Virus record (IMG/VR): IMGVR_UViG_3300043774_001310
Coordinates: 1 to 40,944 of that record
DNA length: 40,944 nucleotides
Origin: a virus
Strand: one strand, 5' to 3'
In this document: positions 9,236-39,864 of the stretch, in pieces
Layout of the letters: the number at the start of each line of letters is the position of its first letter
How positions within the stretch are numbered: the first letter of the stretch is position 1
Notes under the pieces: generated by a model
What the model was told of the DNA's origin: nothing
The model's database searches: none
What the model saw: only the letters and a program-made list of their open reading frames with translations
Position numbers and translations under genes: made by a program

Positions 9236-11218
9236 ATGCGAGACATTATGTCAAATAGTGGTGGATTTTCATCCATGAAGCTTTCTAGGCTAAATTCAGA
9301 CGGTGGAGCTGACGATAATTACATATGGAATACTGAAAAGATCAATAAAATTTTAGATGCAATTGAAAATGAGGGTCTGGATGTTAGGACGCTCAGTAAC
9401 ACACCATTTAAAGATAATGATATAACTCAAAAGAAACCTAACTTAGCCTTTGAATACACACCTGAAGAGTTCGAGGAACTTAGAAAGTGTAAAGAAGATG
9501 TTCTATATTTTGCATATAATTACTGTCATATAATGACGAGTAAAGGAGTTAAACTTTTGAAGGATACTGCAGGTCTGCGAGACTATCAGGAAGAAATCTT
9601 AACTTCTTTCTGCAACAATAACTTAAATATCTTAATGGCAAGTCGTCAGATTGGAAAATCTGTGACTTCTGGTATTTTTATTCTATGGTTTCTGTTATTC
9701 AATAATGATAAAACGGCATTAGTTGTTGCTGATAACTCAACGACTACTAAGGAGCTTATTGATAAATTTAAGATAGCGCTTGATAATCTACCATTTTTCA
9801 TAAAGCCAGGAATAAAGAATGGTAATGTGATGTCTCTTAAATTCGATAATGATAGTCGTTTAGTAGGTCGAACTACTACTAAAAAATCAGGTATCGGTCT
9901 CTCGATCAACTTATTATATATGGATGAGTTTGCTCATATCAATGACGCGAACTTGGACGAGTTCTATCGAGCAGTATTCCCAACGGTTACTGCTGACCCT
10001 GATGCAAAAATTATTATCACATCAACACCAAATGGTAAAAATAAATTCTACGATATTTGGACAGACGCCGTTGCTAAAAAGAGTAGTTATGTTCCACTTA
10101 GAGTAGATTGGTGGCAAGTCCCAGGAAGAGATGATGCTTGGAAAATAAAGACGATTGCTGACTTAGGATCAATTGATGACTTTAATCAAGAATATGGACT
10201 CCAGTTCTTTTCATCAGACCAATTAATGTTAGGATCCAAGGATCTAAAGAGACTCTATAATATGATGCAGGACTATCAAGAAAGTAATGTATACTTTGAT
10301 GAAAATAAAGAATTTATTAGAAAGCACTTAAGGTTTCATCCAAAATACGCATCTAGGGAAATTTCAGATTTTAAAAACGATCCGGGCTATTACATATTTA
10401 GCATAGATACTGCTGATGGAATAGGAGGAGATTACTCAGTTCTTAACATATTTAAAGTAGTTTGTTTACCAGTTAAGGAATTGCAAAGAAAGAAGGAAAG
10501 TGTTAGAAATGAATTAGATACTATCTCACTAGTACAAATAGGTACTTTTAGAACAAATGAATTGGACATAAATGCATTTGCGTCAGCCTGCGAACATATA
10601 ATATACAAAATATTCAATCCCGAAAGAACTAGGATTGTTCTGGAGATGAATCATAAAGGCGATATACTACTAAACATGTTTAAAGATAATCCAGAGTACT
10701 GGAGTAGCCAAATGATTCATAGCAAACATACTGAACTTGCAGTAGTCACTAAGCCTGGATTACGACTAGGGCCAACTAACCGAACAAAATATTGTGAAAA
10801 GTTAACATATTTGATAAATTTGAATAAAATAATTCCAAACGACTACTTTACTATAATGGAATTAATGTCATTTGGTAAATCAAGCGGAGGCGTTTATAGA
10901 GGACAAAATGGAAACGACGATCTTGCCATGACTTGTGTAAACCTTTCCTCAGTATTTGACTCTTCTCAATTTTTTGACGTAGCTGTCGATACTTTTGAGA
11001 ATATGGGAGTTGAATATGCGAAGGAGATCGAGCGAGTGTTTTTAAATGTAAATCGATCAGATAATGAGAGATCTATGTACGATTACGGAAAGCTCAGAGA
11101 AATGAATAATGTTGGAGGGAATGACACTCCACAAAATAAAAGCGTTTCCCCTAACGTATTTGATTCTCAATCACTTGAACAATTTGAAAAAATAAAGAGA
11201 CACTTTTTTAAAAGTTAA
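9236..11218 (+). CDS. 17: Terminase large subunit (DNA packaging ATPase-nuclease)
   Basis: The 660-aa protein is the motor that pumps DNA into the prohead and cuts the concatemer. It has a Walker A-type loop SRQIGKS at residues ~136-142, Walker B LLYMDE at ~226-231, and coupling motif STPNG at ~263-267. The RNase H-like nuclease domain starts with SIDTADGIGGDYS (Asp391, equivalent to the first catalytic Asp of T4 gp17), then LEMNHKG (Glu) and NGNDDLA (Asp). Length matches T4 gp17 (610 aa) with a longer N-terminus. The start is the ATG at 9236; a second in-frame ATG at 9248 is equally possible. It begins 3 bp after the previous gene and is followed by a 53-bp gap with an inverted repeat. Confidence 0.97.
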   Translation: MRDIMSNSGGFSSMKLSRLNSDGGADDNYIWNTEKINKILDAIENEGLDVRTLSNTPFKDNDITQKKPNLAFEYTPEEFEELRKCKEDVLYFAYNYCHIMTSKGVKLLKDTAGLRDYQEEILTSFCNNNLNILMASRQIGKSVTSGIFILWFLLFNNDKTALVVADNSTTTKELIDKFKIALDNLPFFIKPGIKNGNVMSLKFDNDSRLVGRTTTKKSGIGLSINLLYMDEFAHINDANLDEFYRAVFPTVTADPDAKIIITSTPNGKNKFYDIWTDAVAKKSSYVPLRVDWWQVPGRDDAWKIKTIADLGSIDDFNQEYGLQFFSSDQLMLGSKDLKRLYNMMQDYQESNVYFDENKEFIRKHLRFHPKYASREISDFKNDPGYYIFSIDTADGIGGDYSVLNIFKVVCLPVKELQRKKESVRNELDTISLVQIGTFRTNELDINAFASACEHIIYKIFNPERTRIVLEMNHKGDILLNMFKDNPEYWSSQMIHSKHTELAVVTKPGLRLGPTNRTKYCEKLTYLINLNKIIPNDYFTIMELMSFGKSSGGVYRGQNGNDDLAMTCVNLSSVFDSSQFFDVAVDTFENMGVEYAKEIERVFLNVNRSDNERSMYDYGKLREMNNVGGNDTPQNKSVSPNVFDSQSLEQFEKIKRHFFKS

Positions 11219-11559: not shown

Positions 11560-12659
<1,100 letters not shown>

Positions 12660-13815: not shown

Positions 13816-14355
13816 ATGGCTACTCTAACTTCAATATGTGATTGCTGCGGAAGCTCAAATTCATACGATGTTTTACAGATGTTCAATGACGGATGTCTAA
13901 AAATAGTCGATGGATCAAAAACAACAGATGAATTTTGTTTCACAGATTTTGCTTTTCCAGTAGATGGAAGTACTTGTGCAACCGTTACTCTCAATGAAGA
14001 TGGAGGAACGCATATCGTTTTTGATAACAACATTGTAGGCTTCACAGTTCCTGAGCCAGATGCTAATTTTCCAACTGACTTTATCAAAGCCAGAGGAGTT
14101 ATGATACGTGTTGCGTATCCTACTCTAGATTTGGATGGAGAAACAATACCTATTCAAGACAAGAAAGCACAATTATTAGTAGAAGATGCATACGGCATAA
14201 TAAGTACTCAACCTTTTTACGATTTGTATATGCATTTCGTAAACCCACATAGTAATATTGCAGCTGACGTAATAAATAAAATAACAGTAGTAAACCCTAA
14301 TTCTAATTATAGAATCAAGGTGCATACTTTAGTAATATTAGGTAAATCAGTATGA
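13816..14355 (+). CDS. Probable virion protein of unknown function
   Basis: A 179-aa protein with predicted mixed, mostly beta content. The N-terminus has clustered cysteines (CDCC at residues ~8-11, with further Cys at ~28 and ~42). The start is the ATG at 13816 rather than the TTG three bases upstream. It follows a late promoter and overlaps the next gene (ATGA), so it belongs to the late structural set. A neck or tail-completion role would fit, but no family is recognised. Confidence 0.6.
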   Translation: MATLTSICDCCGSSNSYDVLQMFNDGCLKIVDGSKTTDEFCFTDFAFPVDGSTCATVTLNEDGGTHIVFDNNIVGFTVPEPDANFPTDFIKARGVMIRVAYPTLDLDGETIPIQDKKAQLLVEDAYGIISTQPFYDLYMHFVNPHSNIAADVINKITVVNPNSNYRIKVHTLVILGKSV

Positions 14356-14828
14356 TGAACGATAAAATTTTAAATGAAGGAAGAGCAGCTACATCATTTC
14401 TACAATATAGAAATTTGATGGGCGGTTTGCCTTTTTATGGAACATCCGGCGATTACCAATTTACAACAACTAATCGAAGTCAATTTACTCCAGGTTTTCA
14501 GATAAAACTTACGAATCTGACTGACATGTCATATAATGGAGATCCTGGAATGAGTGATTTTGATAGCATGGTGAATACTGTTAGAAAACACTTTAGGGTA
14601 GGCGATCGAGTTAGAGGACTTATTGTTAATTCACAAATTGAAAACGAAGAAGGTCGATACGCAGTTGGAAGAATAGTAAAATTCGATATAAACTATAGCG
14701 ACAGAACAATTAAAGTAATAATTAAAAATCCGGAAACTCTAGAAACTCAGGAGATTTACTTTGATTCAATGGTTCGATTATATGAGAGCCATAAGATAAT
14801 GAGATTCTCAGAATATTTAAAGTCCTAA
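14352..14828 (+). CDS. Probable virion protein of unknown function
   Basis: A 158-aa protein. The N-terminus reads KILNE-GRAATS, which includes the hydrophobic-x-Glu pattern seen on several other proteins here. Residues ~85-140 look like a small beta-barrel (RVGDRVRGLIVNS, then RIVKFDINYSDRTIKVIIK), and the C-terminus ends MRFSEYLKS. Translationally coupled to the preceding gene by a 4-bp overlap. The SH3/OB-like region suggests a binding role. No family is recognised. Confidence 0.55.
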   Translation: MMNDKILNEGRAATSFLQYRNLMGGLPFYGTSGDYQFTTTNRSQFTPGFQIKLTNLTDMSYNGDPGMSDFDSMVNTVRKHFRVGDRVRGLIVNSQIENEEGRYAVGRIVKFDINYSDRTIKVIIKNPETLETQEIYFDSMVRLYESHKIMRFSEYLKS

Positions 14829-14870: not shown

Positions 14871-15860
14871 ATGGTTGATAAAATCAATGAAGAAGATGCT
14901 CTGCGTTTTCTAGAAGAAAAAGATAAAGAGTTTGGAGTCAATAATGTTGAAGATGAGACTGAAGTAAGTGTTGAGCCAGTAAAAAGTTTAGGAACTGCTC
15001 AATTTTATAACGCACCTGAGCTTTCGAAAGCATCAGAATCTCCTTGGAAATCATTAAACTTACTAAATATACCTTCGCAGGGGTTGTTTTATCCAGATGG
15101 AGCAGAAGTTTTATTAAAATCTGCAAAAACCAAAGAAATACGTCATTGGTCAACAATTGACGAGACTGATCCAATCAGTGTTAGGGAAAAGATAAATTTC
15201 ATACTTAATTCTCTAACGAATGTTTCTTTAAAAACTCCAGGTTCAGTTTATTTAGACCTTCTTGAAATAGACAAATTTCATATCTTGTTTAGAATACATG
15301 AATTAACTTTTCCTAATCAAGAAAACAAGCTTTGGGCTAATCTAAAATGTACAAATACTGCGTGTAATCATGTTAATAAAGTGCACGTGACTAGTTCAAA
15401 TCTAACAGGTTTTGTGCTCCCTGAAGAATTACAAAAATGGTATTCTGCTGAAGAGAGGTGTCTAGTAATAGACTCTCCTAAACTTGGAGAAACACTAAAA
15501 TTTTATTTACCTTCAATTGGTATGCAGAACCGGTTTAGGGCAAAACAAAAAACAGATAGAGAAAACAATCAATTAGCTGATGACTTTTTCTATGAAATGG
15601 GTCCATACTTATTCAAAGATTGGAAATCTCTAAGTAACGAAGAGATTTCACGATTAAAAATTGAATCGCAAGACTGGTCAGTTCAGAAGACGACTGTTGT
15701 GTACAAGATAGTAAAAATGCTCAAGGAAAACTCAGTAAATAAAGTAGGTTTTGCTTGCGAAAAATGTAAGACCGTTGGGGAGAGCAGCATTTTTTTGGGA
15801 GGAAGCTTCACTGTCAAAGATATTTTCATTATTTCAGCTGGACTTGATGAACTTATTTGA
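14871..15860 (+). CDS. 26: Baseplate hub protein, T4 gp26-like
   Basis: The 329-aa protein has the opening of the T4 baseplate protein family (gp26-type): IPSQGLFYP at ~67-75 (family pattern LPSkGxxYP), followed by a Lys-rich strand region with TKEIRHWS and a helical stretch PISVREKINFILNSLTNVSL. It also carries two cysteine pairs, C160-x4-C165 and C296-xx-C299, that could form a zinc site. Length exceeds T4 gp26 (208 aa) because of an N-terminal extension and the Cys-containing insert. It overlaps the next small gene by 14 bp. T4 gp26 acts in assembling the central hub of the baseplate. Family call is by motif memory. Confidence 0.6.
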   Translation: MVDKINEEDALRFLEEKDKEFGVNNVEDETEVSVEPVKSLGTAQFYNAPELSKASESPWKSLNLLNIPSQGLFYPDGAEVLLKSAKTKEIRHWSTIDETDPISVREKINFILNSLTNVSLKTPGSVYLDLLEIDKFHILFRIHELTFPNQENKLWANLKCTNTACNHVNKVHVTSSNLTGFVLPEELQKWYSAEERCLVIDSPKLGETLKFYLPSIGMQNRFRAKQKTDRENNQLADDFFYEMGPYLFKDWKSLSNEEISRLKIESQDWSVQKTTVVYKIVKMLKENSVNKVGFACEKCKTVGESSIFLGGSFTVKDIFIISAGLDELI

Positions 15861-25066: not shown

Positions 25067-27010
25067 ATGTTGTCACAAAAAATGAAGTACGTAAAGCCGT
25101 ATCTTTCTGAGTTAGATAGTTTTTCTATTATAAATTCTGCACTTTCTGAGCATGCTCTAAAAATAGAGGAAAGTTTAGATTTCTCTAATTTCATGAGAGA
25201 AATAAATCTTCTTGATAAAATAGAAAAAGCTATTCCAGAAGCGCTACGTTTCGATTTAGAATTAGATTTAGTTCTATCTAGACAATCGAATAAGATTACA
25301 GAGTATTATAAAAGTCTACAAAGCGGAAGAAATTCTCTTTTAGAGAGTGCACAAGCTAAAGTAAATTCTACTCAGATTCAAGAAGCTATTACAAAATTAA
25401 AAAAATTAGCTTCTTCTGGACAACTAAATGAAAGTATTTGGGATATTAAAGTACCTAAACAACCTGAAGTTGCAACTGCATCTGTGCCTGCAGAAACGGC
25501 TGATATTAAAACAGCAAGCGCAGATGCGAGTCATTTTGACGCAGCAGTCAACAGTGATGCAGGTCTTAGTGGAGAATCAGGTGGTCTTTGGGGATCAATT
25601 AAATCCTTGCTATCTGCTTTAACTGAGGGAGGTTCTCCAATCGGAATAGTTCACTTAATTTTAGATCTGGTCGGTCTTTTTGGAGATTTCTTGGGACCAG
25701 CTCTACCTATTGGGCTTATCGCAGACATACTTAATGGATTGATCTATTTGTATAGAGCGTATACTGCCGAAGACGAAGAAAAGAAGACTGAACGCTATAT
25801 ACTTGCTGCAATATCGTTGATAGCGGCAGTTATACCAGTAGCTGGAGACGTTCTTAAAGGATTTAAGGGAGTAGCATCACCTGCAGGTAAAGTATTATAT
25901 GCTTCTGCAAAAGGAGCTAAGGTTGAAGAAGAGGCATTGAAGGTAATGGCAACTCTTCCAGGCAAACAAAAGAATTTGTTTGCAAGATTTATGGAATACT
26001 TAGCTAAAACAATAGGGCCAGCCTTAGCTAAAATCTCTTCTCTTCTTGAAATGTTTTTTAAGAATTTTTTAGGAAAGATTACATCATATATTCCAATTAT
26101 TGGAGGACCGTTAAGTAAATTTTTTGACAATATTGCGGCCGCTTGTGCAAAATTCACAAAGCAAATGGATCCTATTAAAGGATTAGGAAATTTAACAGAA
26201 GCAGCAGCTGAACTTTCTGTTAAAAATGCTGAGCAATTTATGAAATCTGCGTCAAAAGCAATGGACGAAGGCGCTGAAATAATAAAAAGCGGTGATTCGA
26301 TTATTATTAAGAATGCGGACGGTTCTATTGAGAAGTTTGCAATAGAGGATTTCGCAAATGCCGCTGCATACAGCAAGAAATTTCCAGATGGTCCAATGGC
26401 CGACTATTTTAAGAAGGGAGGAGCTGGAGAAGCAGCGGCTGCTGATTATTATATCAATCTGTCTAAACTATCAAAGGGAGCAGGCGCAGGAAATATTGTT
26501 GGAAAAACTATAAATTTTGGAATAGCAAGTTTAGTGTTTAGCCAAAAAGGAATAGCATTTTTAGCAAAGCAGATAGTAAAACTAATGTTTTCAAAAGAAC
26601 TTGCAGAAGCTACTGGAGAAACTGAAAGCTCTACTTTTGCAGGAACAGCCGTTCAAGATCTAATGGATAAACGCTTTAAAGAGATGCGAGAAAAAAATCC
26701 AGATTTTAGATATGGTCCAGTTCTAATAGAAGACGGCCTTCGAGATGATGAGTTTTATAAAGCATTAGTCGATCAACAGAATTATTACGCAGATAGGACA
26801 GGATTACCTCATATCATCCCAGTTGCATACTTTAATGGAAAAGAAGCTGGTGAAGATATACCAGAAGATGTAGATCTGTTGATGTCTACTATGTACTCTC
26901 CAATTGAAATTGAAAAGATGGAGGAAACCATGAATAAAACTCGTAGTAATACATCTGAAAGCGTATCGTTCAAGAGAATATTAAGCTACGCTGATTTTTT
27001 AAAGAAATAA
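25067..27010 (+). CDS. Large virion-type protein with pretoxin-like hydrophobic region
   Basis: A 647-aa protein. Residues 1-125 are helical and charged, with SGQLNES at 118-123, a hydrophobic-Asn-Glu site like the presumed processing sites on neighbouring proteins. Residues ~130-180 are Ala/Ser-rich. Residues ~190-230 and 244-270 are strongly hydrophobic helices ending IPVAGDVLKGFKG, similar in style to the membrane-like segment that precedes toxin domains in polymorphic toxins. The rest is helical with a C-terminus reading SFKRILSYADFLKK. This could be a head-carried protein that crosses or forms a pore in the host membrane during injection. That is inference; no family is recognised. Confidence 0.5.
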   Translation: MLSQKMKYVKPYLSELDSFSIINSALSEHALKIEESLDFSNFMREINLLDKIEKAIPEALRFDLELDLVLSRQSNKITEYYKSLQSGRNSLLESAQAKVNSTQIQEAITKLKKLASSGQLNESIWDIKVPKQPEVATASVPAETADIKTASADASHFDAAVNSDAGLSGESGGLWGSIKSLLSALTEGGSPIGIVHLILDLVGLFGDFLGPALPIGLIADILNGLIYLYRAYTAEDEEKKTERYILAAISLIAAVIPVAGDVLKGFKGVASPAGKVLYASAKGAKVEEEALKVMATLPGKQKNLFARFMEYLAKTIGPALAKISSLLEMFFKNFLGKITSYIPIIGGPLSKFFDNIAAACAKFTKQMDPIKGLGNLTEAAAELSVKNAEQFMKSASKAMDEGAEIIKSGDSIIIKNADGSIEKFAIEDFANAAAYSKKFPDGPMADYFKKGGAGEAAAADYYINLSKLSKGAGAGNIVGKTINFGIASLVFSQKGIAFLAKQIVKLMFSKELAEATGETESSTFAGTAVQDLMDKRFKEMREKNPDFRYGPVLIEDGLRDDEFYKALVDQQNYYADRTGLPHIIPVAYFNGKEAGEDIPEDVDLLMSTMYSPIEIEKMEETMNKTRSNTSESVSFKRILSYADFLKK

Positions 27011-30172: not shown

Positions 30173-30180
30173 GATAAATA
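30173..30180 (+). promoter_or_regulatory. T4-like late promoter (plus), divergent pair
   Basis: GATAAATAATAAAAAG; predicted start near 30186, a 5-nt leader before ATG 30191. Confidence 0.65.
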
Positions 30181-30190
30181 ATAAAAAGTG

Positions 30191-31015
30191 ATGGCTTTGA
30201 ACCTACGTAAATTTAATGAATATGAATTAAAGTTTTCAAAGGATCCTGAAAAATTTAAGAAGAGAATCGGACTAACTTGTGAAAGTTTAGATATTTTCGA
30301 TTCACAGTTCAATAGTGCTCCACTAGTTCGATGGGGAAAATCAGACGTGTTTGAAGAAAATTCAGCTTCAAATACTTCTAGGATCTATAATAGAACACCG
30401 TTGCCAACACTAAATCAACTTTATTCTGATTTGTCGTCAGAATCATTTGTTCCAAAGTCAGTAATGGACAGATCTCTAGTAAAAAAGATGAACTTTCCTA
30501 TTGTTGCTATGAATGAAACTGAGACTGAAGAATTTAAAACATATGGGAAATATAAGAAAAGCAAAAAGAATTGGCTAGCATTTACTGAAAAACCAAAGCC
30601 TCAAGTTAGAATGAAAGCACTAGCTTTCAGAGATAAACTAATTCATCTTGAGGAAAAGGTAGGAGGCTTTATATTTGATGTTAGACCGACTTATGATGCA
30701 TCAGATATTTCAAAAATTTTAGAATCAATCTACAACGTAAGCTGCCCTGATTTCTACGAGATTGATGTTGAACTTACTGAATCTGGATGGAAGTTATGTG
30801 GAATAGGTCACAGCGACGAATTAAATCCTCTTAAACAGATTAAAATATACGAATGTGCATATCGCGATGCATATTCATTTTCTCTTCCAAATTGGTTTAA
30901 ATCGCAAATTAGAAAAGAACATCTAAAACCTTATTACTCTGGAAAAATACTGGAAGAACGCGTAGTAAAACCGAAATATTCAATTGATTATAAAAAGGAA
31001 GCAGATAAATGTTAA
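30191..31015 (+). CDS. Protein of unknown function, first gene of the bS21 unit
   Basis: A 274-aa protein beginning MALNLRKFNEYELKF, somewhat like the aromatic N-termini of neighbouring proteins but without a clear hydrophobic-x-Glu site. The start is ATG 30191; the GTG directly before it is less likely. The middle holds a basic helix (TYGKYKKSKKNWLAF) and the C-terminal third has alternating strands (FYEIDVELTESGWKLCGIG). It overlaps the bS21 start by 7 bp, and its last codons contain the Shine-Dalgarno sequence of bS21, so the two are linked at translation. No family is recognised. Confidence 0.6.
   Translation: MALNLRKFNEYELKFSKDPEKFKKRIGLTCESLDIFDSQFNSAPLVRWGKSDVFEENSASNTSRIYNRTPLPTLNQLYSDLSSESFVPKSVMDRSLVKKMNFPIVAMNETETEEFKTYGKYKKSKKNWLAFTEKPKPQVRMKALAFRDKLIHLEEKVGGFIFDVRPTYDASDISKILESIYNVSCPDFYEIDVELTESGWKLCGIGHSDELNPLKQIKIYECAYRDAYSFSLPNWFKSQIRKEHLKPYYSGKILEERVVKPKYSIDYKKEADKC
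30994..31003 (+). promoter_or_regulatory. Shine-Dalgarno sequence of bS21
   Basis: AAAAAGGAAG lies just upstream of the bS21 ATG at 31009. AAAGGA is complementary to the TCCTTT part of the 16S 3' end, with about 8 bases to the ATG. No other start in the window has a comparable match at good spacing (the AAGGA before 39352 is only about 3 bases from its ATG). Confidence 0.7.
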
Positions 31016-31203
31016 TAGTTGATCAAATTCGCTCAAATAAAATAGAACAAGCTCTAAAATCTCTGAGAAAGAAGGTTGAGAAAACTAAACAATTGGATGA
31101 ACTTAGAAATAGAAGGACGTATAAAAAAAGGTCTACTGCAAAGAGGGAAGAACTAAATAAAGCGAAATACGTTCAAAAGAAATTTGGTGATTCAAAATAT
31201 TAA
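31009..31203 (+). CDS. rpsU: Ribosomal protein bS21 homologue
   Basis: A 64-aa very basic protein with the bS21 pattern: an N-terminal strand, then helices with ALKSLRKKVEKTKQLDELRNRR (residues ~15-36) and a Lys/Arg-rich end. The C-terminal extension KAKYVQKKF resembles flavobacterial bS21 (KAAYIQ), with Tyr at position 54, the residue I recall contacting the anti-Shine-Dalgarno in Flavobacterium. bS21 sits at the 30S platform near the 16S 3' end. Phage copies could replace the host protein on ribosomes and bias start-site choice. The gene overlaps its upstream neighbour by 7 bp and is the only one in the window with a good Shine-Dalgarno. Confidence 0.88.
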   Translation: MLIVDQIRSNKIEQALKSLRKKVEKTKQLDELRNRRTYKKRSTAKREELNKAKYVQKKFGDSKY

Positions 31204-31209
31204 AGAATT

Positions 31210-31698
31210 ATGCTAAAATTTAATGATTTTATAGAAAAGTCCGACGTGCGTAGTGATGCTGCTGCCGGAGTTGCAGTAATTTGGAATAATTCAATTTTAC
31301 TAGTTCATCCAGCCAATTCTAGTTGGGTGAGACCAACTTGTGGAATCCCTAAGGGCGGAGTTGAACCTGGAGAAGAGATTATTGATGCTGCTCTTAGAGA
31401 ATTAAAGGAAGAGACCGGAGTAATCTTATCAAAATCTGACCTAGATCCAGAGCAGCACCATGTAACAATGTATTCTAAAAACGGAAAAGTTAAATGGACC
31501 CTGTTTTACTATGTGTGCATCATAAATGATCCGTCTGAAATAGGTCTCTCTTCATATAAAGTTCCATCTTCAAATTTACAACTTGAAGAAATTGATTGGG
31601 CTGCATTCGTACCAGTAGAAAAAGCATATTCTATGGTAAATCAGGGACAGTTAATAATTTTAGATCGACATCTTGAGATAAGAGGACGACTTCTATAA
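31210..31698 (+). CDS. NUDIX hydrolase with capsid-targeting-like N-terminus
   Basis: A 162-aa protein with a complete Nudix box at residues 49-71 (Gly49, Glu55, Arg63-Glu64, Glu67-Glu68, Gly70), which binds metal and cleaves a nucleoside diphosphate linked to another moiety. Candidate substrates include oxidised dNTPs, Ap4A, NAD-type caps or ADP-ribose; the sequence does not decide. The domain proper starts near residue 16; before it is MLKFNDFIEKSD, resembling the N-terminal peptides on nearby presumed head proteins. It starts 6 bp after bS21. Confidence 0.93.
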   Translation: MLKFNDFIEKSDVRSDAAAGVAVIWNNSILLVHPANSSWVRPTCGIPKGGVEPGEEIIDAALRELKEETGVILSKSDLDPEQHHVTMYSKNGKVKWTLFYYVCIINDPSEIGLSSYKVPSSNLQLEEIDWAAFVPVEKAYSMVNQGQLIILDRHLEIRGRLL

Positions 31699-33032: not shown

Positions 33033-33296
33033 ATGGGAAAACGTATAAAATCAATTTATGAGTTCATGATGGCAGAGCCTAAGACCGCTCCTACTAGAAC
33101 TACACCTGCGCCTACGACAACACCAAGTCGTCCAGCACCAGGACCAATTCGTCGAGACAAACCTTCAACTCAACCTAGACCTGCAGCAACTGCTAAAGAG
33201 CTGGTTGATGAATTTGTTAGCATCTTACGAGATGGCGAAGCTCCAAAAAATTTCGATATTAAAAAATTTAGAAGCAGATATGGCAAACGTGCGTAA
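33033..33296 (+). CDS. Small Pro/Thr-rich protein with targeting-like N-terminus
   Basis: An 87-aa protein. MGKRIKSIYEFMMAE-PKT has the aromatic peptide with hydrophobic-Ala-Glu at residue 15. Residues ~16-52 are Pro/Thr/Arg-rich and basic, and the end is a basic helix (AKELVDEFVSILRDG, then FDIKKFRSRYGKRA). A basic, disordered head-internal protein would suit DNA condensation or injection. It overlaps the next gene by 17 bp. Confidence 0.6.
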   Translation: MGKRIKSIYEFMMAEPKTAPTRTTPAPTTTPSRPAPGPIRRDKPSTQPRPAATAKELVDEFVSILRDGEAPKNFDIKKFRSRYGKRA

Positions 33297-36200: not shown

Positions 36201-36531
36201 TGATTTCTTAAGAGAACCTTTAAGAGAATCTGAATATTCAGAGATTCTAAACAGTTTAAAAAATTTAGGAATAGTCATAGATCAAACTTATCTGATATTT
36301 AAAGCAATATTTCCAAAGCCTAGCGAAGAAATAGTATCATCTGTTCTTGCTGCAACAAATCGACAAATTTCTAGAATCAATGAAGCTGTTATAAAATTGA
36401 GAAAAGAAGGTAATAAAACTTCTGAAACTGCTAGAAAAATTTCAAGGGCAACTGACTTAGTCAAAGCCATCGAAGCGACTATTTTACCTAAACTTAATAC
36501 TGATCTAGAAAACGCTAGAAAAAATGCCTAA
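33280..36531 (+). CDS. 1083-aa protein, possible two-part head-internal protein
   Basis: The start is the ATG at 33280 (MANVRNFSDFMNE-ASF), which places a targeting-like peptide at the N-terminus; the frame is open a further 25 codons upstream but that region lies inside the preceding gene. Residues 1-460 are helical and acidic, and a second peptide of the same kind, MRYRTFLNE-SVD, begins at Met471. Residues ~480-1083 hold a mixed domain with ANWCINRGQFWNYAK followed by strands (LQFTIYNFQW) and DADGTVYAAHN, a motif I associate with a phage protein family but cannot name. The C-terminus is helical. Head-internal location is inferred from the peptides. Confidence 0.55.
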   Translation: MANVRNFSDFMNEASFQGNAGIPGEEGENKPSYLKRVERAAAERGQEFARNNRQDISGFMGLVMQARRLQEGKEEALEALAEKTVRDLFGSILDGVTLNIKFAKGDEIKNMMEESPDESASLPEIEELKDADIISAVQVRKLSNAIMQGSAKNTKLCLNLDDTFEGLVEIFGEEDAEKMRDLLTRITNVADFYDWNIPMEVQKEMWKTRNGFSGSVQVEWEESNEETEDLAKKVLDDLASGEDIVDNPEVEELFNETTPTVNALGTDFAMLLHEGVKGVYMLIAALSIPEDEEASSIVVGNTDSLADEIEDLRYGPQIEADFRDFVNELDTSRLPDNPQARVFGKLLEISQDLGEKKKFLRIFNGILLSRFDESELTEEQKNEVKKVYDFCQKLVDSIADELEEYYSQTQNQSEYEPGEYIIPNEPEEKSEYSEKELLKMADDALDRGDMEEFKRISAILANMSEAFTYTMRYRTFLNESVDAGKKYVVKKAVEDKLAREYRNDTEEELEQRVKDYIRTMAPEEEKQILDSDKDFQEIKNMLVKNPGLMVPFLKWKKEEGATIEFLKNQLDSYTGLNQLTSKVSADEYTNIPRYLLIKVRDCENKKSVTGKTFKFTYLTDLSDESSVFLVKDKQTDQTPSLNVKDAFVSELSKAISCPIENISFVRIKEYNRDIESLAQKAETMQHIPGYERFGDKVRNIEKLRKGDWLRKSLPTSAGRILGKNVNLKKLFDESPESFKESMLNDAATLADYPEMIKIFNKKISAITSMEELREYLTRRLNALGSSAEKLLQDVERLSPGVECLYDDDNYVLISLRSEEAQKALCSAANWCINRGQFWNYAKGRLQFTIYNFQWPQTDDKYMLGFTCDADGTVYAAHNTSDDSVRGNSNEKYQELLRRLGFPKSIIAALDQMFKVEASIKGVTDSLYSGGSKSVDRIKVIIDNSLKQYLTATKSDDLLPAYQASSRIALRILVDDFLREPLRESEYSEILNSLKNLGIVIDQTYLIFKAIFPKPSEEIVSSVLAATNRQISRINEAVIKLRKEGNKTSETARKISRATDLVKAIEATILPKLNTDLENARKNA

Positions 36532-36946
36532 TTATAGACAATTTGAAAAGCTTCCATTATTCGAATCATTCTGTAAAAAGAATGAAGTAGATAGGGTAAA
36601 AATTTCTGGAAAAATAGGAGATGTTGATTTAAAATTGACTTGCTTAACTACTCCAGAGAGTCAAATGGAAGGTTTTTCAAAATATTCACCTACTGAAAAT
36701 CATGGGTTGCTCTTCATCTATACTGAGGAGCAACCTCTTAATTTTTGGATGAAGGGCGTTGATTTTCCACTAGATATTATGTACTTCGATGCTGACCGTA
36801 ATTTAATTGAATTTCATAATATGCAGCCGGAAGAAGAACCCAAAACTATTTACACAAGTAAGCAGCCTGCAATGTTTGCAGTAGAGGTTCCTGAAGGTTG
36901 GTGTGAAGCTAATTCAATAAAAGTAGGTTCAAAGTTAAATTTTTAA
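36524..36946 (+). CDS. DUF192-family protein
   Basis: A 140-aa protein with the DUF192 pattern: MEGFSKYSP, then GLLFIYTEEQPLNFWMKGVDFPLDIMYFD (Trp-Met-Lys followed by Pro-Leu-Asp), a Pro-containing loop, and a closing FAVEVPEGWCEANSIKVGSKL. In DUF192 proteins this fold is a small beta-barrel of unproven function. Most bacterial members are exported; this one lacks a signal peptide and instead begins MPNYRQFEKLPLFESF. It overlaps the 1083-aa gene by 8 bp. Confidence 0.85.
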   Translation: MPNYRQFEKLPLFESFCKKNEVDRVKISGKIGDVDLKLTCLTTPESQMEGFSKYSPTENHGLLFIYTEEQPLNFWMKGVDFPLDIMYFDADRNLIEFHNMQPEEEPKTIYTSKQPAMFAVEVPEGWCEANSIKVGSKLNF

Positions 36947-39351: not shown

Positions 39352-39864
39352 ATGAACTATGTGAACGGAGATCTAATTAAACTTGCAAAGGAAGCAATCT
39401 TTGATGTTATAGTGCATGGCTGCAATTGTCATAGTACTATGGGCGCTGGAATTGCACCGCAAATGGCAAAGGCGTTTGGTTGCGACAGATTTGAAATGGA
39501 ACTATGGGGATCTGACATAAATAAGTTAGGTAACATTGACTATCAAACGGTAGTTCTCGGTGAAAACACTATTTGGTCGTTGACTGACTGCAAGAATAAT
39601 CGTAATGAACCTGAATTGACTGTCGTGAATGCTTACACGCAATTTAACTATGGAAGAAATCATGCGGATGGCGATCTTCGACCATTTGACTATGAAGCCT
39701 TCACAATCTGCATGCGAAAGCTAAACTCCGAGTTTGCTGGTAAACATATTGGAATGCCTAAGATCGGTGCCGGCCTTGCCGGTGGCAACTGGAATCGTAT
39801 TGAAACGATTATAGAAACTGAACTTAGAGATTGCAAAGTAACAATCGTAAACTATAAACCTTGA
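39352..39864 (+). CDS. Macrodomain protein (ADP-ribose-processing)
   Basis: A 170-aa macrodomain close to Poa1p/ADP-ribose-1''-phosphatase types. VNGDLI (~4-9) holds the Asp that binds adenine, GCNCHSTMGAGIA (~23-35) is the first phosphate loop, and GMPKIGAGLAGGNW (~138-151) is the second. Such proteins bind or hydrolyse ADP-ribose derivatives, for example products of RNA ligation or of ADP-ribosylation. In T4-like phages they probably recycle ADP-ribose-1''-phosphate or counter host NAD-based signals. AAGGA lies only 3 bases from its ATG. Confidence 0.92.
   Translation: MNYVNGDLIKLAKEAIFDVIVHGCNCHSTMGAGIAPQMAKAFGCDRFEMELWGSDINKLGNIDYQTVVLGENTIWSLTDCKNNRNEPELTVVNAYTQFNYGRNHADGDLRPFDYEAFTICMRKLNSEFAGKHIGMPKIGAGLAGGNWNRIETIIETELRDCKVTIVNYKP

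Follow-up and report, generated by a model that had tools for sequence, protein, structure and literature searches.

A phage-encoded bS21 of the Bacteroidia type with Tyr54, its ATP-grasp/bS21/NUDIX gene neighbourhood, and its contrast with host rpsU in Shine-Dalgarno strength

Among the ribosomal proteins that phages encode, bS21 is the most frequent. The stretch of DNA analysed here, referred to below as the window, is a viral record of 40,944 bases (IMG/VR record IMGVR_UViG_3300043774_001310, positions 1 to 40,944) that holds one bS21 copy. The window also contains genes for a T4-like terminase large subunit (TerL), a baseplate wedge protein, a sigma factor, a DNA ligase, a NUDIX hydrolase and macro-domain proteins; the TerL gene lies about 20 kb upstream of bS21 on the same strand. 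The features referred to in the text are the following.

9236-11218, plus strand: terminase large subunit (TerL), the marker for finding relatives (PHROG 5989, E 2.5e-47)
11569-12195, plus strand: sigma-factor-like gene, a candidate late sigma factor (PHROG 1740, E 1.1e-13)
30174-30182, plus strand: ATAAATAAT, putative late promoter of T4 type in front of the cassette, from its enrichment and its position before gene starts
30188-31015, plus strand: 275-aa open reading frame, predicted ATP-grasp-like fold (AlphaFold, Foldseek, VIA)
30994-30999, plus strand: AAAGGA, a weak 6-bp Shine-Dalgarno (SD)-like match 9 nt before the bS21 start (pairing -6.6 kcal/mol)
31009-31203, plus strand: rpsU-like gene for a 64-aa bS21 (PF01165 match, ungapped alignment to 7jil, AlphaFold and Foldseek)
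31168-31170, plus strand: TAC codon of Tyr54, a residue with a predicted stacking contact to A1534 in the 16S 3' tail (column conservation; PMC9976891)
31210-31698, plus strand: NUDIX hydrolase, third gene of the cassette (PF00293, E 1.6e-14; cassette conservation)

The product of 31009-31203 is a genuine 64-aa bS21. It exceeds the cut-off of Pfam PF01165 (Ribosomal_S21; E 9.1e-8, 32.1 bits, cut-off 27) and matches PHROG 21469 'ribosomal protein S21' (E 8.8e-5); with NCBIfam TIGR00030 it scores 28.2 bits, narrowly below the cut-off of 28.95. One frame read on the opposite strand of the gene contains several stops. An AlphaFold model built from 23 window and locus sequences (pLDDT 83) has helices at residues 12-26, 28-34 and 41-59, and all seven PDB chains that Foldseek matched to it are bS21s, with Z only about 4. 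The best ribosomal matches of phmmer among solved structures are the Bacteroidia-like bS21s of 9i5v and 7jil (F. johnsoniae). Residues 2-57 align to the 7jil protein, as to that of 9i5v, without a gap, with KAKYVQ over KAAYIQ and Tyr54, which falls in the last helix of the model, over the Tyr54 reported to stack on A1534 (PMC9976891). The first-pass annotation had proposed the bS21 identity, the C-terminal match and the tyrosine at position 54, and all three hold. It had also called the protein flavobacterial, of which a Bacteroidia type with Tyr54 stands; the nearest cellular bS21s found are those of Bacteroidales (47% identity), with Flavobacterium at 36%-39% and F. johnsoniae at 38%, and judged by these identities 'Bacteroidia-type' is the better name.

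A Bacteroidota host, which this earlier reading implied, is indicated by two lines of evidence. The structural protein encoded at 14871 has relatives that come almost exclusively from phages of Prevotella, Tenacibaculum, Chryseobacterium and Flavobacterium; the exceptions are phage PAU, whose recorded host is a Sphingomonas, and huge phages that are uncultured. The window genes are, moreover, SD-poor, with a median pairing to the 16S tail of -1.8 kcal/mol versus -2.9 kcal/mol at random window positions. No DNA-level relative of the window was found in the phage collection; relatives of its TerL show 62%-69% identity, plus one partial match at 99%. The macro-domain protein of 39352-39864 (best PHROG 'phosphatase') and the DUF192 protein of 36524-36946 share one region.

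The stop codon of the 275-aa open reading frame (31015) overlaps the bS21 start (31009). The TerL relatives were searched whole for bS21, and the same order recurs in the five that carry it. There bS21 shares the strand of TerL at a distance of about 17-22 kb and lies between a 275-285-aa open reading frame and a NUDIX hydrolase, with overlapping or adjacent start and stop codons. An alignment-based scan with the upstream protein yielded 17 loci, which together with the window make 18 cassettes, including several loci from records already reached via TerL and some near-copies. bS21 is present in 14 of the 18 and cleanly absent from four (L186, L189, L196 and L197), in which the flanking genes are direct neighbours; bS21 is therefore dispensable, and the idea of the ATP-grasp gene as its obligate partner is weakened. 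Two cassettes (L194 and L195) carry a strongly diverged bS21, with 22% identity to the window protein and the tyrosine kept, that Pfam does not detect. Taken as a whole, bS21 is the central gene of a cassette that is translationally coupled and probably late, with an ATP-grasp-fold protein before it and a NUDIX hydrolase after it.

No Pfam family was found for the upstream 275-aa protein, and tblastn found no ATP-grasp homologs in the phage collection. Its assignment comes from an only moderately confident AlphaFold model (pLDDT 72, from 6 sequences), which matches ATP-grasp ligases in Foldseek (E about 1e-6) and reaches Z 10-11 to LysX, ArgX and RimK in VIA, with an rmsd of 3-4 Å over about 170-185 residues. 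The E-x-N metal-binding motif expected near the end is not evident in the sequence alignment. Three proteins form the anti-Shine-Dalgarno (ASD) pocket, and one of them, bS6, is modified by RimK. A tie between the modelled upstream protein and RimK/bS6 is only suggestive, because many ligases have this fold and the alignment does not clearly show the usual catalytic residues.

The motif ATAAATAAT occurs eight times in the window against 2.3 expected, a number reached in 0 of 100 shuffles, and all eight copies lie 12-26 nt upstream of a gene start, the one at 30174 preceding the cassette. We take it to resemble the T4 late promoter. Its distance to the start is mostly 23-27 nt in relatives, and it is 23 in the window cassette if the start is placed at TTG 30197; this spacing and the fit of the alignment make TTG 30197 the probable true start of the 275-aa open reading frame. 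The leaderless phage mRNAs invoked by the first-pass annotation did not find support, as the motif spacing in relatives makes short leaders likely and the bS21 start overlaps an upstream stop within the operon. A leaderless mRNA for the bS21 gene itself was rejected, the gene being coupled to the upstream open reading frame. At L049, L050, L053 and their relatives, the element GGAGG(G/A)AGATATATGTA(G/A)TATATG stands directly upstream of bS21; its ATG, which either is in frame or is followed by a stop, has SD-like spacing to the bS21 start, and the element may be a promoter or a start-stop element.

A separate observation concerns protein termini. The N-terminus of the NUDIX hydrolase, MLKFNDFIEK (31210-31240), resembles the capsid-targeting sequence of T4 internal proteins, in which residues 4 and 7 are the most important for targeting (PMC9026906). 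The pattern M-x(2-6)-[FY]-x2-[FY]-[mostly hydrophobic] begins 30 of 144 genes versus 1.8% at internal sites, figures obtained with a pattern chosen after looking and with homologs counted repeatedly. It is found at 31210-31240, 32274, 32731, 33283 (in the open reading frame at 33205) and 36524, as well as in the relatives L186-L201 and, as MMNFNEFINE, in L107; bS21 itself lacks it. From this resemblance, the NUDIX hydrolase and its neighbours may be packaged and injected. Similar aromatic motifs at protein C-termini, HKIMRFSEYLKS and KRILSYADFLKK (14352-14828 and 25067-27010), are perhaps a C-terminal version of such a signal.

An alignment of 23 diverse bS21s from phages and hosts has only four invariant columns, M1, L16, R46 and Y54. 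Tyr54 was part of the patterns that retrieved the host loci and the first phage set, so a fair view of this residue, the one contact to the 16S 3' tail that was scored, comes from the cassette family and from the loci retrieved with N-terminal patterns. Tyr54 is present in all ten other distinct bS21s of the cassette family, which were reached via TerL or the ATP-grasp gene and not via bS21. The 30 further distinct loci from N-terminal patterns have an aromatic residue at position 54 throughout (Tyr in 26, His in 2, Trp in 2), one of them, L239 with His54, being a cellular gene copy. L239, 77% identical to the F. johnsoniae protein, had been considered a recent phage capture; its upstream sequence equals that of the bacterial locus L350, and it was therefore treated as cellular.

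Host and phage genes differ in the sequence upstream of them. Among 41 distinct upstream regions of canonical Bacteroidota host rpsU genes, the median pairing is -18.5 kcal/mol and 36 reach -11 or lower. A phylum-wide host sample that includes lineages without Tyr54 has a median of -15.1 kcal/mol (33 of 49 that strong), whereas phage bS21 genes have -2.4 kcal/mol (3 of 65). The phage genes differ from the phylum-wide sample with a Fisher p of 2e-13, to be read with upstream regions that are related within clades and thus not independent. Contiguous pairing of at least 9 bp within reach of the start was found for 35 of 41 host versus 2 of 66 phage genes, one of the two lying 13 nt away. The absence of an SD extends over the window family (a strong SD in 0 of 10) and the large phage clade, and also over those phage proteins that are more like the host's and all but one of the four huge phages. 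Some host lineages are also without one, namely Porphyromonas and second-copy paralogs, and in the phylum sample only 6 of the 12 host genes with Met1 and Tyr54 have a strong SD. The L049-type clade has strong G-rich sites (AGGAGGG), which were not counted as well placed SDs, being variable and at least 13 nt from the start.

The AAAGGA of the window spans 6 bp, short of the at least 9 bp of the extended SD of autoregulated Bacteroidia rpsU, and a short SD (AGGA) had virtually no effect in the work of McNutt 2023 (PMC9976891). It is absent from the nine other distinct upstream regions of the family, where pairing ranges from -3.0 to +0.1 kcal/mol, and its interpretation as a retained host SD was rejected for its weakness and this absence. 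The rare phage bS21 genes with an 8-9-bp SD at normal spacing are L308 and L203 (LR756501), and L308 has His54 instead of Tyr together with a 9-bp SD before its own gene. Several Flavobacteriaceae (L221-L238, in Algibacter, Wocania, Seonamhaeicola, Mangrovimonas and Robertkochia genomes) carry two to three bS21 genes, with the extended SD before the canonical copy only. The other copies, most containing ...RKHRNIKVMQNL..., are without an SD and apparently represent a second, feedback-free bS21 in cellular genomes.

F. johnsoniae ribosomes depleted of bS21 prefer rpsU with its extended SD, which lets ribosomes lacking bS21 translate the gene, and the Y54A substitution raises rpsU about 3-fold (PMC9976891). 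The SD contrast suggests that the phage copy sits outside this autoregulatory loop; the loss of the SD could also be neutral, as a phage gene needs no feedback. We consider it reasonably probable that the window encodes a functional, phage-adapted Bacteroidia-type bS21 which is made outside host feedback, replaces host bS21 and keeps the ASD hidden. The gene would be transcribed, probably late, within the ATP-grasp/bS21/NUDIX operon and translated without an SD, and its product would enter host 30S subunits and displace host bS21. Its third helix and Tyr54 would keep the 16S 3' tail tucked away, so that these ribosomes would remain in the SD-less initiation mode needed by phage mRNAs. As host rpsU is best translated by ribosomes lacking bS21, a phage protein that occupies the site and is not made from an extended SD would leave fewer bS21-free ribosomes and starve host bS21 synthesis, making the replacement self-reinforcing. 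Phage bS21 transcripts are late in the data of Chen 2022 (PMC9723584), and a pelagiphage bS21 enters E. coli ribosomes (PMC6375957). The first-pass annotation had left two options, namely that the phage protein keeps the ASD hidden or that it modifies that state; hiding appears the better one, because the window genes are SD-poor and Tyr54 is invariant.

The same protein may act in other ways. In vitro, the pelagiphage protein had a strongly impairing effect on E. coli ribosomes (PMC6375957), and a phage bS21 therefore need not act like the host's. Residue 23 is Phe in all but one of 39 canonical hosts, but V, I, A, S, M or T in three phage groups, namely the window, the family around it and the large phage clade. 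The same three lack the K-[DE]-G motif that every host has at positions 7-9, and both the window and the large clade have K or R in place of Gly27. These consistent differences lie near the mRNA side, in line with the proposal of Chen 2022 (PMC9723584) that the divergent N-terminus and first helix of a phage bS21 replacing the host's would alter mRNA choice toward phage transcripts, the hiding of the ASD being incidental. However, apart from the promoter-like ATAAATAAT, phage genes showed no phage-specific leader element upstream, and the divergence may be drift under relaxed constraint; we regard this explanation as possible but doubtful.

A thinned tree, of low resolution since it has only 64 columns and no outgroup, places the window, its family and the large phage clade on one side of a branch (99/95). 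The window bS21 was also considered a xenolog from the large clade; the first tree placed it there with weak support (96/28), the thinned tree put it with its own family (95/75), and the AU test did not reject a placement in the large clade (p 0.19). The phage-only grouping and the shared signature point to a distinct role and so speak against a simple supplement of gene dosage, in which the phage makes up for host bS21 that infection removes or dilutes and does not affect regulation. Host autoregulation of rpsU should, in addition, already refill bS21 (PMC9976891). Such a supplement would agree with the retained 3'-tail contact, with the dispensability of the gene in 4 of 18 cassettes and with the displacement of native bS21 by a viral one in ribosomes (PMC6375957), but on balance it is improbable. 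That phage bS21 loosens the hiding and favours SD-bearing mRNAs is very hard to credit for the window despite the His or Trp that replaces Tyr54 in a few phages (L308, L276, L285) and the 9-bp SD of L308, because the window has Tyr54 and SD-poor genes, whose mRNAs an exposed ASD would not benefit.

Hiding of the ASD by phage bS21 is not a new idea (PMC9723584, PMC9976891). Bacteroidetes-phage bS21 with a conserved aromatic residue 54 (Tyr54) was described by Chen 2022 (PMC9723584), and McNutt 2023 (PMC9976891) considered what it means, made the connection to the ASD and speculated on autoregulation as a host defence. The lake-phage proteins of Chen 2022 share with the window the Bacteroidia type, the aromatic residue 54, Bacteroidota hosts, sequences apart from bacterial ones and a late structural gene region. 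Their genes lie, however, on the reverse strand among capsid genes, and their clades are defined by this strand and by conserved genes near TerL, portal and MCP, whereas the window gene lies outside that definition, on the TerL strand about 20 kb off in the ATP-grasp/bS21/NUDIX operon. Host bS21s (F. johnsoniae, Bacteroidales) share the helix layout, Tyr54 and a 56-residue ungapped alignment, but at 38%-47% identity, and the phage version is without Phe23, the K-D/E-G motif and the extended autoregulatory SD. Four huge uncultured phages (LR756501, LR745206, LR756502 and LR756504; 635-735 kb) encode bS21s with Tyr54 and 43%-48% identity to the window, and three of them have a related TerL (33%-37%); unlike the window, their bS21s fall among host sequences in the tree, no ATP-grasp gene accompanies them, and LR756501 has an 8-bp SD. 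The bS21 of pelagiphage HTVC008M (Mizuno 2019, PMC6375957) is likewise phage-encoded and was shown to enter ribosomes, but is of the alphaproteobacterial type, in which the ASD is not known to be hidden. The text of Chen 2022 (PMC9723584) does not mention ATP-grasp, NUDIX or promoters, and a search covering part of the literature found no earlier description of the cassette or the SD contrast.

With an extended SD before host rpsU and almost never one before phage rpsU, the question of why phages carry bS21 becomes a specific one, whether phage bS21 turns the host gene off, and F. johnsoniae, for which reporters and rpsU mutants exist, is suited to it. We tentatively propose that Bacteroidota phages have repeatedly uncoupled bS21 from the ribosome-sensing feedback, and that the Tyr54 protein made from an SD-less copy refills ribosomes, hides the ASD and in this way switches off host rpsU. 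If this is true, the control loop of the host itself would convert its ribosomes into ones that carry phage bS21.
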